The notes under the pieces: generated by a model
The model's input: the letters and a program-made list of their open reading frames with translations, nothing else
The model's database searches: none
What the model was told of the DNA's origin: nothing
Translations under genes and position numbers: made by a program
Assembly (NCBI GenBank): GCA_014695345.1
Contig: JACJOC010000017.1
Span: forward strand, 124,001-188,000
Length of the DNA stretch: 64,000 nt
Reading direction: 5' to 3'
Source: Cyanobacteria bacterium FACHB-471
GTDB lineage: Bacteria; Cyanobacteriota; Cyanobacteriia; Elainellales; Elainellaceae
Shown: positions 22,891 through 34,743 of the stretch, in pieces
How positions within the stretch are numbered: the first letter of the stretch is position 1
Layout: each line of letters starts with the position of its first letter

Positions 22891-23820
22891 CTACCCCGTT
22901 GCCAATACCTTCTGCCACGCCAATTTTGCGGCTCCTACGATCCCTGCTTTGTTGCCCAACTGAGCTGACAATAGCTGTAGACCCGTGCGGGAACTGGGCA
23001 AAACTCGACGCTCAACTTCCGCTAGCGTCGCCGGGAAAAAGTATTCAGCACTCGCGCTGATGCCGCCACCGATGATTACCGCTTCGGGCGTGAGGACATA
23101 GATTAGGCTAGCTAGACCTGCTCCCAAATGGCAACCATAATCTTGCCAAAAGGCGATCGCTTCAGCATCTCCGGCTTTGGCTCTGCGACCTAGCTCATCA
23201 GGCTCTAGCCCCGTGCGGCGACGAATGGCTTGAATCGAAGCGTACTGTTCTAGAGAGCCACGATTGCCGCTATTGCATTCTGGCCCGTCCATGTTGAGCG
23301 TCACCAGTCCTAGCTCTCCAGCGGTGCCATGATGTCCAGTAAACAGTTTGCCATCTAGAATCACGGCTCCGCCAACACCCGTTCCTAGCGTCAGCAAAAT
23401 CAGATTGCGAAAATAGCGACCTGATCCCAGCCAAAATTCTCCTAATCCAGCGCAGTTGGCATCGTTGGCAAGGGTAGTCTGAATGCTGAGTTTCGACTCT
23501 AGCCAGTCTGCTAATGGAATATCGTGCCAACCCTCCAGGTTAATTGCAACTCTGGCAATTCGCCCTTCCGCATCGGTCGGGCCAGGAGTGCCAACGCCGA
23601 TCGCCCCACTTTGCCCCAGCGGATCAATTTGGGCGATCGCATCTACCATTGCTGCCAGTACTAGTTCTGGATAGGCGGGCTGTGGAGTCGGCACAGTCAA
23701 AGTTTGAAGGCAAGTGCCATCCGCCCCAAAGCGTCCCAGTTTAATCGCTGAACCACCTAAATCAACCCCAATAACGTGTTGACAGGAATGCTGGCAATCG
23801 GCGGCGTTCGGATTCCCCAT
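22891..23820 (-). CDS. ROK family sugar kinase (glucokinase-like)
   Basis: 309 residues, ATG start. N-terminal phosphate loop VIGVDLGGSAIKLGRF, GVGTPGP, catalytic region LANDANCAGLGEFWLGSG, LTLGTGVGGAVILDGKLFTG, HHGTAGELGLVTL. The position of the ROK zinc site reads GPECNSGNRGSLEQYAS: only the first Cys remains, so the zinc-binding CxCGxxGCxE motif is absent. Predicted to phosphorylate glucose or a related hexose with ATP in the cytosol. About 130 nt downstream of the peptide-transporter permease on the same strand; could be read through, but no functional link is evident. Confidence 0.88.
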   Translation of the reverse strand: MGNPNAADCQHSCQHVIGVDLGGSAIKLGRFGADGTCLQTLTVPTPQPAYPELVLAAMVDAIAQIDPLGQSGAIGVGTPGPTDAEGRIARVAINLEGWHDIPLADWLESKLSIQTTLANDANCAGLGEFWLGSGRYFRNLILLTLGTGVGGAVILDGKLFTGHHGTAGELGLVTLNMDGPECNSGNRGSLEQYASIQAIRRRTGLEPDELGRRAKAGDAEAIAFWQDYGCHLGAGLASLIYVLTPEAVIIGGGISASAEYFFPATLAEVERRVLPSSRTGLQLLSAQLGNKAGIVGAAKLAWQKVLATG

Positions 23821-23951
23821 ATTTTGAGCTACTCAGTGCAGTGGATTGGTTAACTTGCGGCTTACCTGACTGCCAATTATACGGGGAGGCTAGGGGTTGT
23901 TAATACTTCGTTGAAAACGGAAATTAGGAATTTTGTGGAGACTTTGAGTTC

Positions 23952-24851
23952 TTAATTCTTTTGGCTCCAATTTTCTCGTCGTAGTAATGGATTGACCCAT
24001 TCATTCAGTCCTTCGCCGATGAGGGAAAGCCCTACCACTAGAAGGGTCAATGCCAAACCGGGGAATAGGGCTGTCCACCAGATTCCGGTAGGCAGGGCAT
24101 CCAGCGCCTGACGCAAATCAGAACCCCAGTCGGGTGTAGGTTCAGGTAAGCCTAAACCAAGGAAGCCAAGGCTACCTAGCGTGAGAACGGCATCAGCGGC
24201 GTTCATTGTAAACAGGACAGGGACACTCTGGATCACGTTAAAGAACAGATAGCGGGATAACACCGTCCAGGTTGAGGCTCCCATTGCCTGGGCTGCTTCA
24301 ATGAAAACTTCGGTTTTGACGCTGACCGTGTGGTTGCGAACAACGCGGTAGTACAGCGGAATGTAGGCAATGCTGATGGCGATCGCCGCATTCAATACAC
24401 CTCGCCCCACGATAAATGCGAGCGTCACTGAAAGTAGGAGTCCGGGCAAGGTGTAGATGGTATCCATAAGAAACACCAAGACCCGATCAAGCCTGCCGCC
24501 CAGATAGCCACTCAACATTCCCAGCGGAACCCCGATCGCCAGACTCAGCGCCGTTGCTAAAACCACCACCAGCATTGCCGATTGCGCCCCAAATAGCACC
24601 CGTGAGAAAACGTCGTACCCTTGACGACTGGTGCCAAACCAATATTCAGATGAGGGGGGCTGGTGTAGTGGATTCGTCAAAGTCTCGGTTGGGTTTCGCA
24701 ACCAGCCCCAAGATTCTATGGTTGGAGCAAAGAGCGCAACCAACAAAAACAGCAGGGTAATAACGATGCCCACCCACATCATCTGGACGGAGAGACTGGG
24801 GTTTTGGGAGGTTTGGAGGAAGCGGGGAAAGCGGAGCCTGGTAGGGGTCAT
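23952..24851 (-). CDS. peptide/nickel-type ABC transporter permease, DppC-like (second copy)
   Basis: 299 residues, ATG start. Six hydrophobic segments with the extended periplasmic loop of the DppC/OppC group (NPLHQPPSSEYWFGTSRQGYDVFSRVLFG) and the cytoplasmic EAA loop (EAAQAMGASTWTVLSRYLFFNVI) that contacts the ATPase. The G-x-DAVLTLGSLGFLGLG stretch is typical. It forms a heteromer with a DppB-type subunit; the only such gene nearby is at 27201. It is separated from the other DppC-type gene (26237) by the WD40 gene, and both share the transcription direction, making a four-gene run. Substrate likely peptides or glutathione-like molecules (inference). Confidence 0.9.
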   Translation of the reverse strand: MTPTRLRFPRFLQTSQNPSLSVQMMWVGIVITLLFLLVALFAPTIESWGWLRNPTETLTNPLHQPPSSEYWFGTSRQGYDVFSRVLFGAQSAMLVVVLATALSLAIGVPLGMLSGYLGGRLDRVLVFLMDTIYTLPGLLLSVTLAFIVGRGVLNAAIAISIAYIPLYYRVVRNHTVSVKTEVFIEAAQAMGASTWTVLSRYLFFNVIQSVPVLFTMNAADAVLTLGSLGFLGLGLPEPTPDWGSDLRQALDALPTGIWWTALFPGLALTLLVVGLSLIGEGLNEWVNPLLRRENWSQKN

Positions 24852-24861
24852 TGGGAAGGAA

Positions 24862-24889
24862 GGGGCTAGGAGCTAGGGATAGATTAGGG
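24862..24889. repeat. short heptamer tandem repeat (3-4 units)
   Basis: GGGGCTA GGAGCTA GGGATAG plus a partial unit, in the gap between the WD40 gene stop and the downstream permease start. Same unit family and phase as the longer array at 27132. Confidence 0.55.
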
Positions 24890-26086
24890 TTGCTTATAAG
24901 TGGTGCGTCGCCACTGTAGAACTACTCCAAGGAGAACGAGGGCGATCGCCATTGTTGCACCAGTTTTAGCGTTCAGGTTACTGAGTAAGCTTTGAAGAGA
25001 GTTTTGTTCTGGATTAGAGATTGACCAGAGCTTGATTGTACCGTCTTCACTAGCTGTTACTATGTACTGTCCATCCGGTGAAAAGTCAATGTATTCCACG
25101 CCCTGGGTATGTTCAGTGATTTGCTGTTGAAGGCTGAAGTCAGAGACGCGGTAGAGTCTGAAGCCAAAGTTTTCGTTGGGGTCTTGACGTTCCGAGCCGC
25201 CGCCACCCGTAGCGAGATATTTCCCGTCGGGCGAGAAGGCAACGGCTTCTACCAAAGAGGTGCCATGCTCTAGCTCGGCGATCTGTTCGCCTGTGTCAAA
25301 GCGAAAGACTTTAGCGACATCTTCATTACCATTAGCAGTGGCGATTAACTCTCCATCAGGCGAAAGGCGAACAGACTTAACCGAGCCGCCATTGTTTGCC
25401 GCCCGGACAGTTCTGACTAGGCGACCGTCCGAGGTGCGAGAAATTTTAACGGTGCGATCGGCTGAACCTGACAGGACATACTCACTATCTTGGGTGAAGT
25501 CGATGGAGTTGATGTCCCGACGGTGCGAGATGCGATCGCCATATCGCAAGGACCAGTCGCCTGGGTCATACATCTTCACCTGACTGTTGTTGCCGTGACT
25601 GGGGGCAGCAAAAAACTGTCCATTTGGAGAAAAAGCAATTCCGTCTGCGCCATCTCCTTCTAGAGTGGTGAGAAGGCTACCATCCCTGGCTCGATAAATT
25701 TTAATGCCGTCAGTATTGCCTGAAACCGCGATTTGCTCACCATCGAGTGAAAAGAAAACTGCTTCAACTTCGCCCTGTTTGTCATCGAGCGAACCGTCCC
25801 AGTAAACTCCTTCCCAAATTAGGGAGCCATCCGCAACCCGCCACAGCCGAAATTTGCCGTCTCCCCCACCTGAGACAATAAACTGACTATCTGGAGAAAA
25901 TTCTGCGGTTTCTGAAGTCCCAGCTTCACCACGCGGATCGGCAGCAGCAGTCCATACTAGCGTCAGTGAGGGAGTTTCTGCTTCTGCACTGGCGATCGCT
26001 TGATCTTTGACGGTTAATGCTGAAGCAGCAAGAACGCCTAGACCAATCCAAGGAAGCAGCCAGCCCAAATTTTTTCTAAACTGCAT
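24884..26086 (-). CDS. exported WD40 seven-blade propeller with C-terminal membrane anchor
   Basis: 400 residues. A hydrophobic N-terminal segment (about 8-32, ending in ASA-type alanines) looks like a signal peptide. Seven WD40 repeats follow (about residues 60-365), each with an FSPDGxxI/L core and a terminal strand such as GKFRLWRV, GIKIYRA, QVKMYD, RTVKISRT, AKVFRF, FRLYRV and GTIKLWS: one complete seven-blade propeller. Near the end a hydrophobic stretch (about 375-393, ATMAIALVLLGVVLQW) plus basic RRTTYKQP suggests a membrane anchor with the propeller outside the cytoplasm. It sits between the two DppC-type permease genes in the same direction. WD40 proteins are scaffolds; here it may present or gate substrates for the transporter (inference). 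Confidence 0.82.
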   Translation of the reverse strand: MQFRKNLGWLLPWIGLGVLAASALTVKDQAIASAEAETPSLTLVWTAAADPRGEAGTSETAEFSPDSQFIVSGGGDGKFRLWRVADGSLIWEGVYWDGSLDDKQGEVEAVFFSLDGEQIAVSGNTDGIKIYRARDGSLLTTLEGDGADGIAFSPNGQFFAAPSHGNNSQVKMYDPGDWSLRYGDRISHRRDINSIDFTQDSEYVLSGSADRTVKISRTSDGRLVRTVRAANNGGSVKSVRLSPDGELIATANGNEDVAKVFRFDTGEQIAELEHGTSLVEAVAFSPDGKYLATGGGGSERQDPNENFGFRLYRVSDFSLQQQITEHTQGVEYIDFSPDGQYIVTASEDGTIKLWSISNPEQNSLQSLLSNLNAKTGATMAIALVLLGVVLQWRRTTYKQP

Positions 26087-26236
26087 AGATGTTTTATCTT
26101 TTTGGAAGCTTATTCGTAGAGACGTAATTCCATCGCGTCTTTACCGGGGCATCTATGGCCGAAACAATTTTTGGTTTCTGTCATCGTGCCTGTCTAAGTC
26201 AGCCCCAAGATAACTCATCCAAAAAGTACTGGCATC

Positions 26237-27124
26237 TCAACGATTTGCCCTAGGATCAAGGCTGTCGCGCAAACCATCCCCCAGCAGGTTAAATGCCAGA
26301 ACAATCAGAGTAATTGCTAAACCCGGAAACACAATTGTCCAGGGCGAGGAAAGGGAATAACCGCCTCGAAACGAGTCTGACAGCATCGTGCCTAGCTCTG
26401 GTGTCGGTGGTTTTGCACCTAAACCCAGAAATCCTAAACCAGCCGCCTCCAGGGTTGCCGTACCCAATGCCAGAGTCGCCTGCACGATAAGAGGAGCAAG
26501 ACTGGCTGGCAAGATGTGGCTAATGATGATGCGATCGGAAGTTGCACCAAAAGCTCTGACGGTTTGGATAAAGTCTTGTTCGCGTAGAGATAGCACCATG
26601 CTGCGGGTCAGGCGAATGAAGATCGGAATTTGGACTACGCCAACCGCAATCATGACGCTGGGAAGGCTAGGGCCGGTGACGGTGACGACGGCGATCGCCA
26701 GCAAAGTGGGCGGAAAAGCCAGCAAAATGTCTGTAACCCAACCGATCACCGTTTCCAGCCAGCCCCGAAAGTAACCTGCGACCATTCCTAGAAAAGTGCC
26801 AATCAGCAAACCTGACCCCACCGAAATCAAGCTAATCGTTAGCGAGATGCGAATGCCGTACCAAATTGCGGTTAACATATCCCGCCCTAACCCATCTGTA
26901 CCCAGCCAAAATTCCAAATCGGGTGGGCTGAGGCGAGAGGCATAGTTTCGTGCTGTCGCAGCATCATAAGGACGAATCAGCGGAGCCAGCACTGCCAGCA
27001 ACAGCAACGCCACTGTGAGAAATAGCCCAATTCTGCCAGAACTGGATTTAAGGAACTGGCGATAAACGCGCTGTAAAGGTTTCGATGCAGCCTGTGTGGA
27101 GACTTCAGGGGAAAGGGTTTCCAT
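26237..27124 (-). CDS. peptide/nickel-type ABC transporter permease, DppC-like (first copy)
   Basis: 295 residues, ATG start. DppC features: hydrophilic N-terminal head, first membrane segment LFLTVALLLLAVLAPL, the loop RLSPPDLEFWLGTDGLGRDMLTAIWYG, EAA-type cytoplasmic loop (IQTVRAFGATSDRIIISHILP) and the LEAAGLGFLGLGAKPPTPELGTMLSD tail common to this subfamily. Six membrane segments predicted. It lies 76 nt downstream of the DppB-type gene, with the heptamer array between them. Its closeness to that gene suggests it is the primary partner; the second DppC-like gene at 23952 is then an alternative subunit. Confidence 0.92.
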   Translation of the reverse strand: METLSPEVSTQAASKPLQRVYRQFLKSSSGRIGLFLTVALLLLAVLAPLIRPYDAATARNYASRLSPPDLEFWLGTDGLGRDMLTAIWYGIRISLTISLISVGSGLLIGTFLGMVAGYFRGWLETVIGWVTDILLAFPPTLLAIAVVTVTGPSLPSVMIAVGVVQIPIFIRLTRSMVLSLREQDFIQTVRAFGATSDRIIISHILPASLAPLIVQATLALGTATLEAAGLGFLGLGAKPPTPELGTMLSDSFRGGYSLSSPWTIVFPGLAITLIVLAFNLLGDGLRDSLDPRANR

Positions 27125-27131
27125 GAGTAAA

Positions 27132-27200
27132 GGGGCTAGGGACTGGGGACTAGGGGCTAAGGGTTGGAGGCTAGGGGTTGGGGGTTGGAGACTAGGGTTA
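27132..27200. repeat. heptanucleotide tandem array, about 9.5 units
   Basis: In-phase units read GGGGCTA, GGGACTG, GGGACTA, GGGGCTA, AGGGTTG, GAGGCTA, GGGGTTG, GGGGTTG, GAGACTA and a partial GGGTTA. The array fills the gap between two permease genes. Units are degenerate but keep a 7-base period. Confidence 0.8.
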
Positions 27201-28211
27201 TTATTTGTATTGGATTCTGGGGTCGAAGAAGGCGTAGGAGAGATCGACCAGGAGGTTGATCAGGACAAAGGTGATGGAAACGAAAACTACACCTCCTTGA
27301 ACAACCGGATAGTCTCTGGCGAGAATGCCGCCGTAAATCCATTCGCCGATGCCGGGCCAGGAGAAAATGGTTTCGGTGAGGACGGCGCTGCTGAGCAGGG
27401 TGCCAAATTGCAGCCCAATGATAGTGATTACGGGTAAAAGGGCGTTCTTGAGCGCATGTTTGAGAATGACCCAGCGTTCTAAGAGGCCCTTTGCTCTGGC
27501 GGTGCGGATATAGTCTTGGGACAGGACTTCTAGCATGGCGCTGCGAGTGAGCCGAGCGACGATCGCCAAAGGAATGGTGCCAAGGGCGATCGCAGGCAAA
27601 ATCAGGTGAGCCAAAATATCTCTCAGCGCCGTAAAGTTGAACCGCAATAGCGCGTCCAGCACATAAAAGCCCGTGATCGGCTGAAAGCCAAACCCTTCAC
27701 TGATGCCAATTCGTCCGCTGGGCGGCAGCCAGCCTAGATTCACCGCAAATAGGTAAATCAACAGCAAGCCTAACCAGTAGACAGGCATGGAAACGCCGAC
27801 CAGCGAAACCGTCATTGCCAGGTTGTCTACCCAACTGTTTTTACGAACTGCGGCAATAATTCCTGCTGGCACTCCAACCAAGATTGAGAACAGCACAGCA
27901 GAGGCCGTTAATTCAAAACTGGCTGCCCAACGTCGTCCAATTTCAGCGGCGATCGGAATTCCGGTGACGATGCTGTTGCCAAAATCAAGCCGCAGCAGGC
28001 TTCCCAAAAAAGTGAGGTATTGAATCGGCAACGGTTCGTTTAACCCCATCTGCTCTCGAAAGGCAGCGATCTGGTCAGGCGTTGCCCTTTCTCCCATTAA
28101 AAACACGGCTGGGTCACCGGGAATTGCATGGAGCAGGGTAAATACGAGCAGGGTAATTCCCAGAAATACGGGCACCAGTCCGAGCAGTCGTCTAACGATG
28201 TATCGCAGCAT
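27201..28211 (-). CDS. peptide/nickel-type ABC transporter permease, DppB-like
   Basis: 336 residues. DppB signatures: MLRYIVRRLLGLVPVFLGITLLVF at the start, HAIPGDPAVFLMGERATPDQIAAFREQMGLNEPLPIQYLTFL, and the EAA loop YIRTARAKGLLERWVILKHALKNALLPVITIIG with DYPVVQGGVVFVSITFVLINLLVDLSYAFFDPRI at the end. Six membrane segments. It is the only DppB-type gene in the locus and lies about 300 nt downstream of the binding-protein gene, with a MITE-like repeat between them. Its position between SBP and DppC follows the usual opp/dpp/gsi order. Confidence 0.95.
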   Translation of the reverse strand: MLRYIVRRLLGLVPVFLGITLLVFTLLHAIPGDPAVFLMGERATPDQIAAFREQMGLNEPLPIQYLTFLGSLLRLDFGNSIVTGIPIAAEIGRRWAASFELTASAVLFSILVGVPAGIIAAVRKNSWVDNLAMTVSLVGVSMPVYWLGLLLIYLFAVNLGWLPPSGRIGISEGFGFQPITGFYVLDALLRFNFTALRDILAHLILPAIALGTIPLAIVARLTRSAMLEVLSQDYIRTARAKGLLERWVILKHALKNALLPVITIIGLQFGTLLSSAVLTETIFSWPGIGEWIYGGILARDYPVVQGGVVFVSITFVLINLLVDLSYAFFDPRIQYK

Positions 28212-28287
28212 GATTAGCTATTTGCTAGCAAAAACTCCAAGCGTGAAACTAATTGCAAGAAGAGAAAGATAGGGAGCAGCAAGTTTT

Positions 28288-28390
28288 GGTGTTGCTGAAT
28301 GCGAGTATGATCCACGGGCATTGATCCCACCTGTAGGGGGCGTTTCGCGAAACGCCCCTACGCAATTCATATCCCAAATCAGCAATGCCC
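28288..28390. repeat. MITE-like palindromic repeat, copy B
   Basis: Left end GGTGTTGCTGAATGCGAG, right end an inverted match (CAGCAATGCC), about 103 bp, with a central inverted repeat of about 13-14 bp per arm (GGGCGTTTCG / CGAAACGCCC core, one bulge). Homologous to copy A at 9876 in layout and left end, but the central stem sequence differs. Inserted between the binding-protein and permease genes of the transporter operon. Confidence 0.65.
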
Positions 28391-28514
28391 AAATTTTGAA
28401 GGGCGCAGCATTCGGCAGCTATGCTCTGCTCTGCAATAGAGCTTTTGCCTGAATGCCACGCCCCTACACTGCTTCATCACTCCTCCGTCCTGAAGGCGCT
28501 GTTCCCTGAAAGGT

Positions 28515-30179
28515 TTATTCCTTGCTAACCGTGTTGAAGGGTTCAGATCCTAAGGGGCTAGGGTTCCAACCCTGGATGTTGGTGCGCTGTGCTAGGAGGG
28601 GCTGTGAGTGAACGATGGGAATTCGCACAACTTCGTCGTAGAGAATTTTGTCTACTTCAGCGTATGCCTGTTCCCTTGCACCCTGGTCGTCTTCGGCACG
28701 AGCCTGATTGAGTAGCTCAATTACGCGATCGCTTTTCCATTCACCGATATCAGTGGTGCCACCTGGTCCAAAGTGATAGTAGTAGAAGTTATCAGGGTCA
28801 CCATAGTCGCCTGTCCAACCCAACATGAAGGATTGAAATCCGGGTGGCTTTTTGCTGTCTTCGATGTAGACAGCCCAGTCTTTGGTTTGTAACGAGACGT
28901 TAATGCCGATCGCACTCAGGTCAGCCGCAAATGCTTCAGCGATCGGTTTGGGCGTAGGAAAGTAAGGACGAGAAACAGGCATGTAGTACATTTCCAGGTC
29001 AAAGCCGTCGGCGTAGCCCGCTTCACTCAACAGTTGCTTTGCCTGTTCTGGGTCATAGGGATAAACTTCCAGGTCGTTAGCGTTGAAGTTTTCCATGGAA
29101 GGAGGCAAGAAGTGCGGATCAGATACGCCTAGCTCACCCCAGAAAGCACTAACAATTTCTGGACGGTTGATTGCTAAGGCGATCGCCTTCCTCACTCGCA
29201 CATCTGCCAGCGGCTCAAAGCCAGTATTTAGTCCTAAATAGCCAACATTGAAGGATTCGCGGAAAACTGCTTCTAGATTATCGTCACCTTCAATTTCCTG
29301 AAGCTGGTCTGGCGCTAGCTCTACCGTAAAGTCAATGCTTCCGGCTCTTAGCTCAGCTAATCGAGCTGAGGGGTCAGTGATAAAGCGGACGACAAGCTGC
29401 TCTTCAGCGGGTGCTCCATCCCAATAGTCAGGGTTGGCTGAGAGAATGACGCGATCGCCCGATCGCCATTCGTCCAAAACGTAAGGACCGGTTCCAACTG
29501 CGGTCGATCCAGGAGTTCCATAATCAGGTCCAGCTTCCTCGATCGCGGTTGGGCTAGCAATGCCAAAATAACCAGAACCGATCGCCACCGGGAAAGCAGC
29601 AAACGGCTGATTTAAAACAAACTCGATGGTGTAGTCATCCACTACATTTAGAGACACCAGTGAAGAGGCTTCGTCTCCTTTAAAGCCGCCAAATAAACCG
29701 GGCCAGATTTCGTATCCTCTGCCCGCATCGCGATATCCGGTTGGACTAGCCGGGTCCCACCAACGCTCAACATTAACTCTGACTGCCTCCGCGTTAAAAG
29801 GAGTGCCATCATGAAACGTTACCCCTTCCCGTAGCGTAAATGTCCAGGTCAAACCATCCTCTGAAGCTGACCACTCTGTGGCTAAACCTGGGACGGGAGA
29901 AGTGGTTCCTGGCTCAAAGTGAACCAGGCGATCGTAAATCTGTTCGTGTACATAAATTGAATTGTTGTCCGTGATATTGCCAGGTTCGAGGTTGGCAGGT
30001 TGTCCTCCCAGCCCAAACACAAGTGCCTGCTGTTCTGAAGATGCGGCAGGGCTGCTTGCTTCTGGAGAATCAGTCGCGTCTGGAGAGCCACCACAGTTTG
30101 AAAGAACTATGGTTAGAGCAAACACCATGCTTAGCAGCACGGGTTGCCACCGCCTCCATCGTTTCCATCGTCTGATCAT
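28515..30179 (-). CDS. ABC transporter substrate-binding protein, family 5 (peptide/glutathione type)
   Basis: 554 residues from ATG 30179, which has GAGGA upstream; the frame extends to 30251 without ribosome-site support. Basic head RRWKRWRRW, hydrophobic segment and lipobox LSNC (Cys about 28), so a lipoprotein. Family-5 features: YDRLVHFEPGTTSPVPGLATEWSASEDGLTWTFTLREGVTFHDGTPFNAEAV, NPDYWDG, VRKAIALAINRPEIV, and the C-terminal ARAEDDQGAREQAYAEVDKILYDEVVRIPIVHSQPLLAQR. Binds an oligopeptide, glutathione or Ni-chelate type ligand in the periplasm and delivers it to the permeases downstream. Divergent from the ATPase gene, so one control region may serve both. Confidence 0.93.
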   Translation of the reverse strand: MIRRWKRWRRWQPVLLSMVFALTIVLSNCGGSPDATDSPEASSPAASSEQQALVFGLGGQPANLEPGNITDNNSIYVHEQIYDRLVHFEPGTTSPVPGLATEWSASEDGLTWTFTLREGVTFHDGTPFNAEAVRVNVERWWDPASPTGYRDAGRGYEIWPGLFGGFKGDEASSLVSLNVVDDYTIEFVLNQPFAAFPVAIGSGYFGIASPTAIEEAGPDYGTPGSTAVGTGPYVLDEWRSGDRVILSANPDYWDGAPAEEQLVVRFITDPSARLAELRAGSIDFTVELAPDQLQEIEGDDNLEAVFRESFNVGYLGLNTGFEPLADVRVRKAIALAINRPEIVSAFWGELGVSDPHFLPPSMENFNANDLEVYPYDPEQAKQLLSEAGYADGFDLEMYYMPVSRPYFPTPKPIAEAFAADLSAIGINVSLQTKDWAVYIEDSKKPPGFQSFMLGWTGDYGDPDNFYYYHFGPGGTTDIGEWKSDRVIELLNQARAEDDQGAREQAYAEVDKILYDEVVRIPIVHSQPLLAQRTNIQGWNPSPLGSEPFNTVSKE

Positions 30180-30387
30180 GCTGTCCTCGCTTAGTTGAAA
30201 GTTTTTTATTAAAGATTCCGTTTTTTTGGCGGATCTAGCTGGAAATTCCATTTACACCGGACAATGCTAGAGGGATGAACTGGCAACAAACTGTATCAGT
30301 TGTGATAAATGAAGCAACTGTTCTAGCTCTAGTGTTGATAGCGGCTATTGTGAAGATACTTACCACTCGCGATCGCCTTCCAAGTTT

Positions 30388-32214
30388 ATGAACTTTCCTG
30401 TTCTGGATGTCCGCAATCTGTCTATCAGTTTCCCTACCGATGCAGGCATTGTGAGAGCGGTGCAAGATGCATCTTTTACTCTGGCAGCGGGTGAAACTCT
30501 GGGAATTGTGGGTGAGTCTGGCTCAGGTAAATCAGTCACTTCCCTGGCAACGATCGGGCTGTTGCCCAAATCTGTTCAGGTTAATGGAGAAATTTGGTTT
30601 CACGATCCTCGCTCCGTATCAGCAGAGCCTGTAAATTTGCTGGGTTTGCTAGCAGGCGATCGCCGCACCTACCGAGGTGGGCAAATCTCAATGGTGTTTC
30701 AGGAGCCGATGACTTCCCTGAATCCAGTTTTTACCTGCGGCGATCAGGTGGTGGAAGCAATTCTGCTTCATGCGGAAGTTTCCCAGGAGGAAGCCCAAAA
30801 GCGGGCGCTCGATCTGTTTCGAGAAGTCAAGCTGCCCAACCCAGAAGCGATGATGAACCGATACCCGCATCAGCTTTCAGGCGGGCAACAGCAACGAGTC
30901 ATGATCGCAATGGCGCTGAGCGGCAATCCGGCAGTGCTGATTGCAGATGAGCCAACCACAGCACTAGATGTAACGATTCAAGCCACAATTCTAGAGTTGC
31001 TGAGGGAAATTCGCGATCGCCGGGGCATGTCGATCCTATTCATCACCCATGACATGGGCGTAGTCGCCGAAATTGCCGATCGCGTCATGGTGATGTATCG
31101 CGGTCGAGTTGTAGAAACTGCAAATGTTTATGAGCTGTTTGCTCAGCCTCAGCACCCTTACACCAAAGGGCTACTCAGTTGCCGTCCTCGCCCCGATCAG
31201 CAGCTAAAACGGTTGCCTACGGTCGCAGACTTCATGCAGGTACAAACCAACCCGGCAGGACAACTCGAAATTCTCGCTAAAACGCTTGACTCCAATCAAA
31301 CGGAAACACTTTGGTCGGAAGTGCCCACAACCGAGCGTGACAACCGATATCACAGTCTACTTCAACAAAAACCGCTGCTCTCGGTTCGCAACCTGACCAA
31401 AAGTTTTCCGATTAGAACGGGGCTGTTTGGTCGTAAAACCATGCTCAATGCAGTCGATGATGTCAGTTTTGACGTGTACCCCGGAGAAACGTTGGGTCTG
31501 GTCGGTGAATCGGGCTGCGGCAAGTCGACGCTGAGTCGAGTGCTGCTCCGGCTAATTGAACCAACTTCAGGAGAAGTCATCTTTGACGGACAATCCGTGT
31601 TTAACCTAAATGCTGCTCAGATGAGGCGGCTGCGACGGGAAATGCAGATCGTGTTTCAGAATCCGTTTGGCTCAATGGATGCGCGTCAGAGTATTGGTGC
31701 TGCTCTAATTGAGCCAATGGTGATTCACAACATCGGCAACTCGCGAGACGATCGCTGGCAGCGGGCGATCGCCCTCTTGGAGCGAGTTGGACTAGACGGC
31801 AGCGCTATGCACCGGATGCCTCACGAATTCTCTGGTGGGCAACAGCAACGAATCTGCATTGCCCGCACCCTGGTTTGCCAGCCACGCTTCATTATCTGCG
31901 ACGAGTCGGTTTCTGCCCTGGATGTGTCTGTGCAGGCGCAGGTACTCAACTTGTTGAAAGATTTGCAGCAAGATTTTGGCTTGACCTATATTTTCATTTC
32001 CCATGATCTGAGCGTGGTGAAATTCGTCAGCGATCGCATTATGGTGATGAACCAGGGCAAAATCGAGGAAATTGGAGCCGCTGACGCAATCTACAACACA
32101 CCTCAGCAGGACTACACACGCCAACTGATCCAGGCAATTCCCGATACTCGGCTAGAAGATCTTCAGGCAAGACAGACACAGCGGTCGGCGAAAGTAAACA
32201 GCTTTCGTTCCTAA
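30388..32214 (+). CDS. double-ATPase subunit of a peptide-type ABC transporter (GsiA-like layout)
   Basis: 608 residues. Two complete ATPase domains in one chain: Walker A GESGSGKS with Lys48, signature [15 protein letters not shown] and [19 protein letters not shown]; then a second Walker A GESGCGKS with Lys379, [15 protein letters not shown] and [18 protein letters not shown]. Each domain is followed by the family-specific HPYT/DYTRQL oligopeptide C-terminal extension. The first corresponds to DppD, the second to DppF; fusion of both is the GsiA arrangement. It energises the permeases encoded on the other side of the divergent promoter. Ends 4 nt inside the convergent GTPase gene. Confidence 0.95.
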
Positions 32215-34693: not shown

Positions 34694-34743
34694 TTGTAGA
34701 GACGCAATTAATCCAAAGGCAAAGATTAATCACGTCTCTACAA
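34694..34743. terminator. bidirectional hairpin between GGT and the small partition-type gene
   Basis: Stem TTGTAGAGACG / CGTCTCTACAA with an inner ATTAATC / GATTAAT pairing, separated by a two-base mismatch, loop about 10 nt. Flanked by AAAAT, between converging genes. Confidence 0.7.

Follow-up and report, generated by a model that had tools for sequence, protein, structure and literature searches.

What does a WD40 β-propeller do when its gene lies between two permease genes of the peptide-transport type, and does it belong to the transporter? The question is raised by a stretch of 64,000 nucleotides from Cyanobacteria bacterium FACHB-471, the whole of which is called the window here. WD40 propellers are usually regarded as interchangeable interaction platforms. 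The first-pass annotation of the window had described an exported, membrane-anchored, seven-blade WD40 protein whose gene lay between two permease genes said to belong to one transporter. It had suggested that the protein was a transporter accessory. The genes and the repeat at this locus are as follows.

23952-24851, minus strand: dppC2, a DppC-type permease gene, widespread in cyanobacteria and mostly unlinked to dppABC1
24884-26086, minus strand: WD40 propeller gene, 400 aa (open reading frame, Pfam match and model)
26116-26144, no strand assigned: palindromic dispersed repeat GTAGAGACG...CGTCTTTAC in the gap between dppC1 and the WD40 gene
26237-27124, minus strand: dppC1, the DppC-type permease gene of the dpp operon
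27201-28211, minus strand: dppB permease gene
28515-30251, minus strand: gene of a dppA-type solute-binding protein
30388-32214, plus strand, divergent from the dpp genes: gene of a double ATP-binding subunit with two ABC_tran domains

On the minus strand the genes ran in the order dppA, dppB, dppC1, WD40, dppC2 and, beyond dppC2, a gene at 22891-23820 which we take to be ROK-type. The annotated position of the WD40 gene was borne out: a DppC-type gene flanks it on either side, all three on the same strand, with gaps of 150 bp to dppC1 and 32 bp to dppC2. A scan for a promoter or terminator of its own performed no better than shuffled sequence (3 found and 3.2 expected; 5 found and 5.3 expected). 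Its base composition (GC 0.508, GC3 0.466), set beside that of five neighbouring genes (GC 0.505-0.546, GC3 0.475-0.599), gave no telling sign of horizontal origin. A mobile or viral cassette was also rejected as the source, since viral contigs gave 25 loci with identity of up to 32% and plasmids gave 261 records with 31-35% identity among the 12 matches listed, with no close relative in either set. The 7.1-Mb genome had four occurrences of the palindrome, GTAGAGACG...CGTCTYTAC, and the window accounted for two (26116-26144 and 34696-34741).

The product was confirmed as a WD40 repeat protein with a predicted seven-blade fold, and the coordinates, strand and length given by the annotation were exact. 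The Pfam WD40 family (PF00400) matched it with an E-value of 1.1e-42 (143 bits against a cut-off of 27), and the AlphaFold2 model, built from a 10-sequence alignment, had seven blades with a mean pLDDT of 87.0 and a pTM of 0.81. In the model, blade 7 was closed by the N-terminal strand of residues 40-48. The helices at residues 10-36 and 359-396 were of low confidence (block pLDDT 51-70). Structural alignment of the model with VIA-align returned seven-bladed WD40 structures, the best match being 7big_A (Z 43.2, rmsd 1.4 over 284 residues), followed among others by 2ymu_A (Z 42.4), PkwA (5yzv_B, Z 42.3) and WDR5 (5ear_B, Z 39.9). The propeller and the segments that flank it are placed as follows.

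25979-26086, minus strand: signal-like segment, residues 1-36 (hydropathy; cleavage site placed by eye)
25016-25969, minus strand: seven-bladed propeller, residues 40-357 (AlphaFold2 model and structural alignment)
24914-24970, minus strand: C-terminal membrane span, residues 373-391 (hydropathy)

The signal-like segment consisted of the n-region MQFRK, a hydrophobic stretch at residues 8-26 and the small-residue c-region AIASAEA, and the C-terminal span was followed by the tail WRRTTYKQP with its two arginines. Two hydropathy peaks were found, at residues 8-26 (KD19 1.64) and 373-391 (KD19 1.67). Membrane proteins follow the positive-inside rule in their orientation, and under this rule the MQFRK before the first peak and the WRRTTYK after the second suggest export at the N-terminus, an anchor at the C-terminus and a propeller in the periplasm. 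The annotated location outside the cytoplasm with a membrane anchor is supported as a prediction by hydropathy, charge pattern and relatives. In the genome G011, one relative alone (L034:7406-8530) had both the signal-like start and the C-terminal span. In Opitutales, an order within Verrucomicrobiota, three copies (L031) had strong N-terminal hydrophobic segments by hydropathy, and five other copies had N-terminal signal-like segments judged by eye only. Further relatives carried RTX, Calx-beta or PA14 domains, which are features of exported proteins. The hydrophobic ends of the window protein could also be of little significance and the protein an ordinary WD40 protein of the cytoplasm; to our knowledge most cyanobacterial WD40 proteins have no obvious export signals. 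This explanation is extremely unlikely given the two membrane-type segments and the predicted export architecture throughout the family.

Whether the propeller belongs to the transporter was judged from synteny in 60 genomes, the window's own (G000) and 59 relatives, with occurrences counted by hand from listings. With orthologues defined by at least 51% identity over the full length for dppC2 and at least 60% identity for dppC1, dppC2 was present in 51 of the 60 genomes (a dppC2 fragment of G044 was left out of the count) and dppC1 in 24, two of these being partial. The two permease genes of the annotation's "same transporter" proved to be mostly apart. Both occurred in 23 genomes, and they were adjacent in only three of these (G000, G003 and G009), distant on one contig in G004, G014 and G025, and on separate contigs in the remaining 17, where fragmentation of the assemblies may conceal some pairs; of the 51 genomes with dppC2, 28 had no dppC1 orthologue at all. 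A single transporter with both permeases was therefore not supported, and dppC2 may not belong to this transporter. The ROK-type gene adjoined dppC2 in 13 of 30 dppC2 loci (22891-24851 in the window), a more lasting pairing than that of dppC1 and dppC2. In G009, two frames of 87 and 126 aa, toxin-antitoxin-like by eye, lay between dppC1 and dppC2 (L063 1544-2305).

The accessory role suggested for the propeller fared no better. Such a role would resemble that of AztD: a propeller in the periplasm would take up a ligand and pass it on, to the solute-binding protein or, here, to the DppC2 permease. It is favoured by the WD40 gene lying on the same strand 32 bp ahead of dppC2, by the G011 relative with both hydrophobic ends, which also adjoined dppC2, and by AztD itself, a published case of a propeller that is exported and whose gene lies in an operon for an ABC transporter (PMC6689063). 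However, the WD40 gene was missing from 23 of 24 dppC1 loci, the window's own being the exception, and from 28 of the 30 dppC2 loci fetched, being present only in G000 and G011; the loci were viewed with flanks of up to about 1.5 kb, and several were ended by contig ends. The nearest equivalent operon, in G003, had the order dppA-B-C1-C2 without a WD40 gene. The annotation had itself named absence from homologous transporter loci of near relatives as a finding that would refute it, and absence was what we found. Retention in orthologous DppABCDF loci thus came to one of 24 dppC1 loci, that of the window, and a conserved subunit of DppABCDF was not upheld by synteny. With its gene missing from the other orthologous dpp loci, the propeller does not count among the conserved parts of the transporter. 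The congener G002 kept dppC2 and its ROK neighbour and had lost dppA, dppB, dppC1, the WD40 gene and most of the ATPase gene; a short remnant of the ATPase gene lay between a GTPase-like gene and dppC2 (L038, contig C181, 1097-1448; compared with window 24870-31991).

The arrangement in G011 needed separate weighing. Its relative of the window propeller adjoined dppC2 (L034:6220-7164) at a distance of 241 bp. The chance that one of the five G011 copies in 8.1 Mb would do so is about one in a thousand by a post hoc estimate, so that the neighbourhood is unlikely to be pure chance and hints at a link between propeller and permease. Against an accessory, the two genes were convergent and are therefore not co-transcribed, and the dpp operon of G011 lay on another contig, where dppB-dppC1 was adjoined by dppA- and ATPase-like frames (by eye) and neither the WD40 gene nor dppC2 was seen at the dppB-dppC1 locus. 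The tree did not show the window and G011 copies to be orthologues: the best tree paired the window copy with the RTX-bearing copy of G000 (support 84/90, not starred), and a tree constrained to join the window and G011 copies was not rejected either (p-AU 0.124). A gene-sized inversion could interconvert the two arrangements of propeller and dppC2. Taken together, these observations leave the transporter reading weak and an AztD-like accessory unlikely; although its gene adjoins genes for peptide transport, the propeller probably forms no part of the transporter. Function should not be read from place in an operon: at this locus the histories of the neighbouring permease gene, of the transporter and of the propeller are separate.

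Relatives of the window protein were sought in genomes with a profile of ten propellers (A2). In the 36 genomes of the window's order, seven copies scored 430-497 bits, two in G000 and five in G011, and the next match scored 202 bits. The same two genomes and seven copies made up the family among the 388 cyanobacterial genomes of the window's class; four further genomes of the class passed the A2 threshold at 213-237 bits with proteins that lacked the ring described below. In 273 Opitutales genomes, eight copies were found at 233-391 bits, three each in G388 and G695 and one each in G664 and G716, and the enclosing class of the order that holds L031 was searched too (286 genomes). A scan of contigs by peptide patterns found only the Opitutales record L031, and these patterns were so narrow that the scan sets no bound on the family. 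The mean pairwise identity of the 15 members was 37% (range 24-86%). On these sequences the window protein belongs to a rare family of propellers, predicted to be exported, of two cyanobacteria and several Opitutales. No named family with its ring was found in Pfam or NCBIfam, and searches of open-licence papers on prokaryotic, exported, exoproteome and Verrucomicrobia WD40 proteins listed none that names it.

The partners of the family point to the cell exterior. The G000 paralogue carried RTX repeats (PF00353, 1.1e-9) and the type I secretion domain TIGR03661 (28.8 bits, cut-off 17.6), and among the G011 copies one each carried RTX repeats (9.8e-27), Calx-beta (1.9e-108) and PA14 (3.7e-32). 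Three copies with RTX or Calx-beta domains lay within 9 kb of G011 contig C2 (L033 8115-16923), a local expansion. In Opitutales, genes for sulfatases, TonB receptors or enolase-superfamily proteins were near five of the eight copies. The G664 copy was flanked by TonB receptor, sulfatase and capsule-type genes, that of G716 by a sulfatase and an MR_MLE (enolase superfamily) gene, and the three of G388 lay with MR_MLE, dehydrogenase and sodium:sulfate-symporter genes, with TonB receptor, GH42 and sulfatase genes further on in the same contig. Around the three copies of G695 there was no clear glycan cluster; one of these copies had two large frames next to it that gave no Pfam match at 1e-8. 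A sister subfamily, represented by four Opitutales copies (L168:5978-7069, L168:12146-13225, L169:10727-11893 and L170:4845-7457), lay in or near the same gene clusters.

What set the family apart was one position of each blade, at the start of the inner strand V-x-S-V-x-F-S-P, where x (offset 0 of strand a) was taken as the ring site. The window protein read E-E-D-N-x-E-E at this offset in blades 1-7, which is the pattern of the family. Its residues are as follows.

25910-25912, minus strand: E59, blade 1, invariant in 15 of 15 members
25763-25765, minus strand: E108, blade 2, invariant in 15 of 15
25643-25645, minus strand: D148, blade 3, invariant in 15 of 15
25508-25510, minus strand: N193, blade 4, invariant in 15 of 15
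25376-25378, minus strand: K237, blade 5, with K in 9, I in 5 and T in 1 of 15
25247-25249, minus strand: E280, blade 6, invariant in 15 of 15
25094-25096, minus strand: E331, blade 7, invariant in 15 of 15

Offset 0 was identical in all 15 members for six of the seven blades, and each of the other 19 offsets, from -6 to +13, was invariant in just 0 to 2 blades. The 15 members comprised ten from A2 and five absent from the alignment that had defined the ring; neither the four sister copies nor any protein lacking the ring was counted. Proteins of at least 700 aa were left out of one alignment and covered separately from some nine loci. In blades 1, 2, 4, 5, 6 and 7 the DSSP string places the ring residue second in strand a, with blade 3 less clear, so in the model these residues should face the central channel. 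The sister subfamily, from G388 and G664, read D-N-D-N-K-E-E, and D148, N193, E280 and E331 were therefore constant in 19 of 19 while two of the six vary more widely.

The ring was not a habit of WD40 repeats at large. In a generic background of 49 WD40 frames, from which the loci with family members had been excluded by a hand-made list, the site was acidic in 14 of 352 repeats, and W and R were commonest. The ring was absent by eye from 10 of 10 full-coverage aligned stretches of ordinary WD40 proteins scoring at least 165 bits. At the same score of 232 bits, an ordinary WD40 protein (L127) read S-I-N-N-N-Y-W and a member (L178) had the full ring. Among 38 generic frames that had at least five matches, one acidic-rich case stood out. 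This was L164 of G428, a long WD40 protein outside the family: of its seven strictly matched strand-a sites (E-R-E-E-E-E-R) five were acidic, but its best-matching stretch aligned to the family read T-E-R-S-E-L-P. The blade-specific ring E59-E108-D148-N193-x-E280-E331 is a new observation from the aligned sequences. One position fixed in nearly every blade, across two phyla and at a mean identity of about 37%, indicates a definite, testable site for binding or catalysis in a WD40 protein predicted to be exported. We infer that a fixed, blade-specific E/D/N ring at the channel mouth would be a binding site with a definite orientation and not a generic platform.

These observations suggest a working model. 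The protein would be exported by Sec, its C-terminal span would hold it in the inner membrane, and the seven-blade propeller would fold in the periplasm. Blade 7 is where both ends leave the model, so the propeller would rest on the membrane and turn its ring face outward. The central channel would be the working site, to which blades 1, 2, 3, 4, 6 and 7 give one fixed residue each, and the ring would capture either a cation by itself or a ligand that is positively charged or bridged by a cation, for example a piece of sugar-acid or glycan or a basic peptide. The channel is perhaps metal-binding, and a cation in the channel during periplasmic ligand capture is favoured by analogy. A lineage-specific event would have brought the gene to the dpp locus, where it may be co-transcribed with dppC2. 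An exported, membrane-held, ligand-binding propeller with an acidic channel ring, placed at the dpp locus by such an event, is in our judgement slightly better than an even bet.

The same ring admits a partner in place of a small ligand. WD40 domains are mostly interaction platforms, and the acidic channel might grip an arginine or lysine of a protein or peptide partner with neither metal nor transport. WDR5 (5ear_B) aligned to the model with an rmsd of 1.8 over 294 residues (Z 39.9), and its negatively charged central channel anchors H3 Arg2 (PMC9329655). However, no partner gene co-occurred across the family, and the Opitutales neighbours were mostly catabolic enzymes and receptors. Such a scaffold we consider improbable.

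A second use of the ring would be catalysis, with the E/D/N residues holding a divalent metal and the propeller hydrolysing a lactone or ester in the manner of SMP30, DFPase and paraoxonase. In SMP30, Glu18, Asn154 and Asp204 bind the catalytic metal in the propeller cavity and Asn103 is close (PMC3551927). The ring has the same residue types as this metal site, and MR_MLE genes form part of the clusters in two Opitutales genomes, G388 and G716. Yet the three enzymes are six-bladed members of another family with no sequence link found, E, D and N are also ordinary binding residues, and no activity is known; a hydrolase by this analogy is very unlikely. The wider conjecture, that the ring is a metal-dependent active site and the exported propeller an enzyme secreted to hydrolyse lactones or esters of sugar acids and glycans, we rate as quite unlikely. 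If true, it would place catalysis on a fold regarded as a pure binding platform; according to the AztD paper, no WD40 protein was known to have enzymatic activity (PMC6689063).

The preferred reading, periplasmic ligand capture by the ring, can be set against known propellers. AztD, encoded with an ABC transporter in the aztABCD operon, is likewise a β-propeller that is exported. Ligand-binding residues sit in its central pore, where zinc is held before it is passed to the solute-binding protein; it has eight blades, three pore histidines as zinc ligands and a conserved disulfide (PMC6689063), whereas the window protein has seven blades, the ring sites E/E/D/N/K/E/E and, in 400 aa, no cysteine and four histidines. 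With no histidine at the ring sites either, it was not placed among the AztD zinc chaperones. SMP30/gluconolactonase, DFPase and PON have E, N and D inside the cavity, as in the window ring (PMC3551927), but they are six-bladed and the window model is seven-bladed, no sequence relationship was found, and catalysis in the window protein is only conjectured; membership of this group was rejected on blade number. SMP30-type and AztD structures were absent from the 50 structural matches listed, which excludes nothing. PkwA from Thermomonospora curvata (5yzv) was the closest natural bacterial seven-blade structure listed (Z 42.3, 27% identity), and its WD40 domain is part of a kinase as named in the PDB listing. 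WDR5 and other seven-blade WD40 interaction domains share the fold (Z about 39.9 for WDR5), and the WDR5 channel is negatively charged; WDR5 is nuclear, whereas the window family is predicted to be exported and has a ring of other residues, particular to each blade.

Prokaryotic WD40 proteins are known to be enriched in cyanobacteria (PMC5587647). The window protein scored 23 bits against the NCBIfam equivalog cut-off of 343.15 for TolB and 32.7 bits against 287.3 for PQQ_ABC_repeats (TIGR03866), and was assigned to neither. Exported propellers are already known, and those of TolB and PQQ_ABC_repeats are bacterial examples. Judged by its sequences, the ring-bearing family would be a novel variation within the exported and prokaryotic WD40 propellers known so far.
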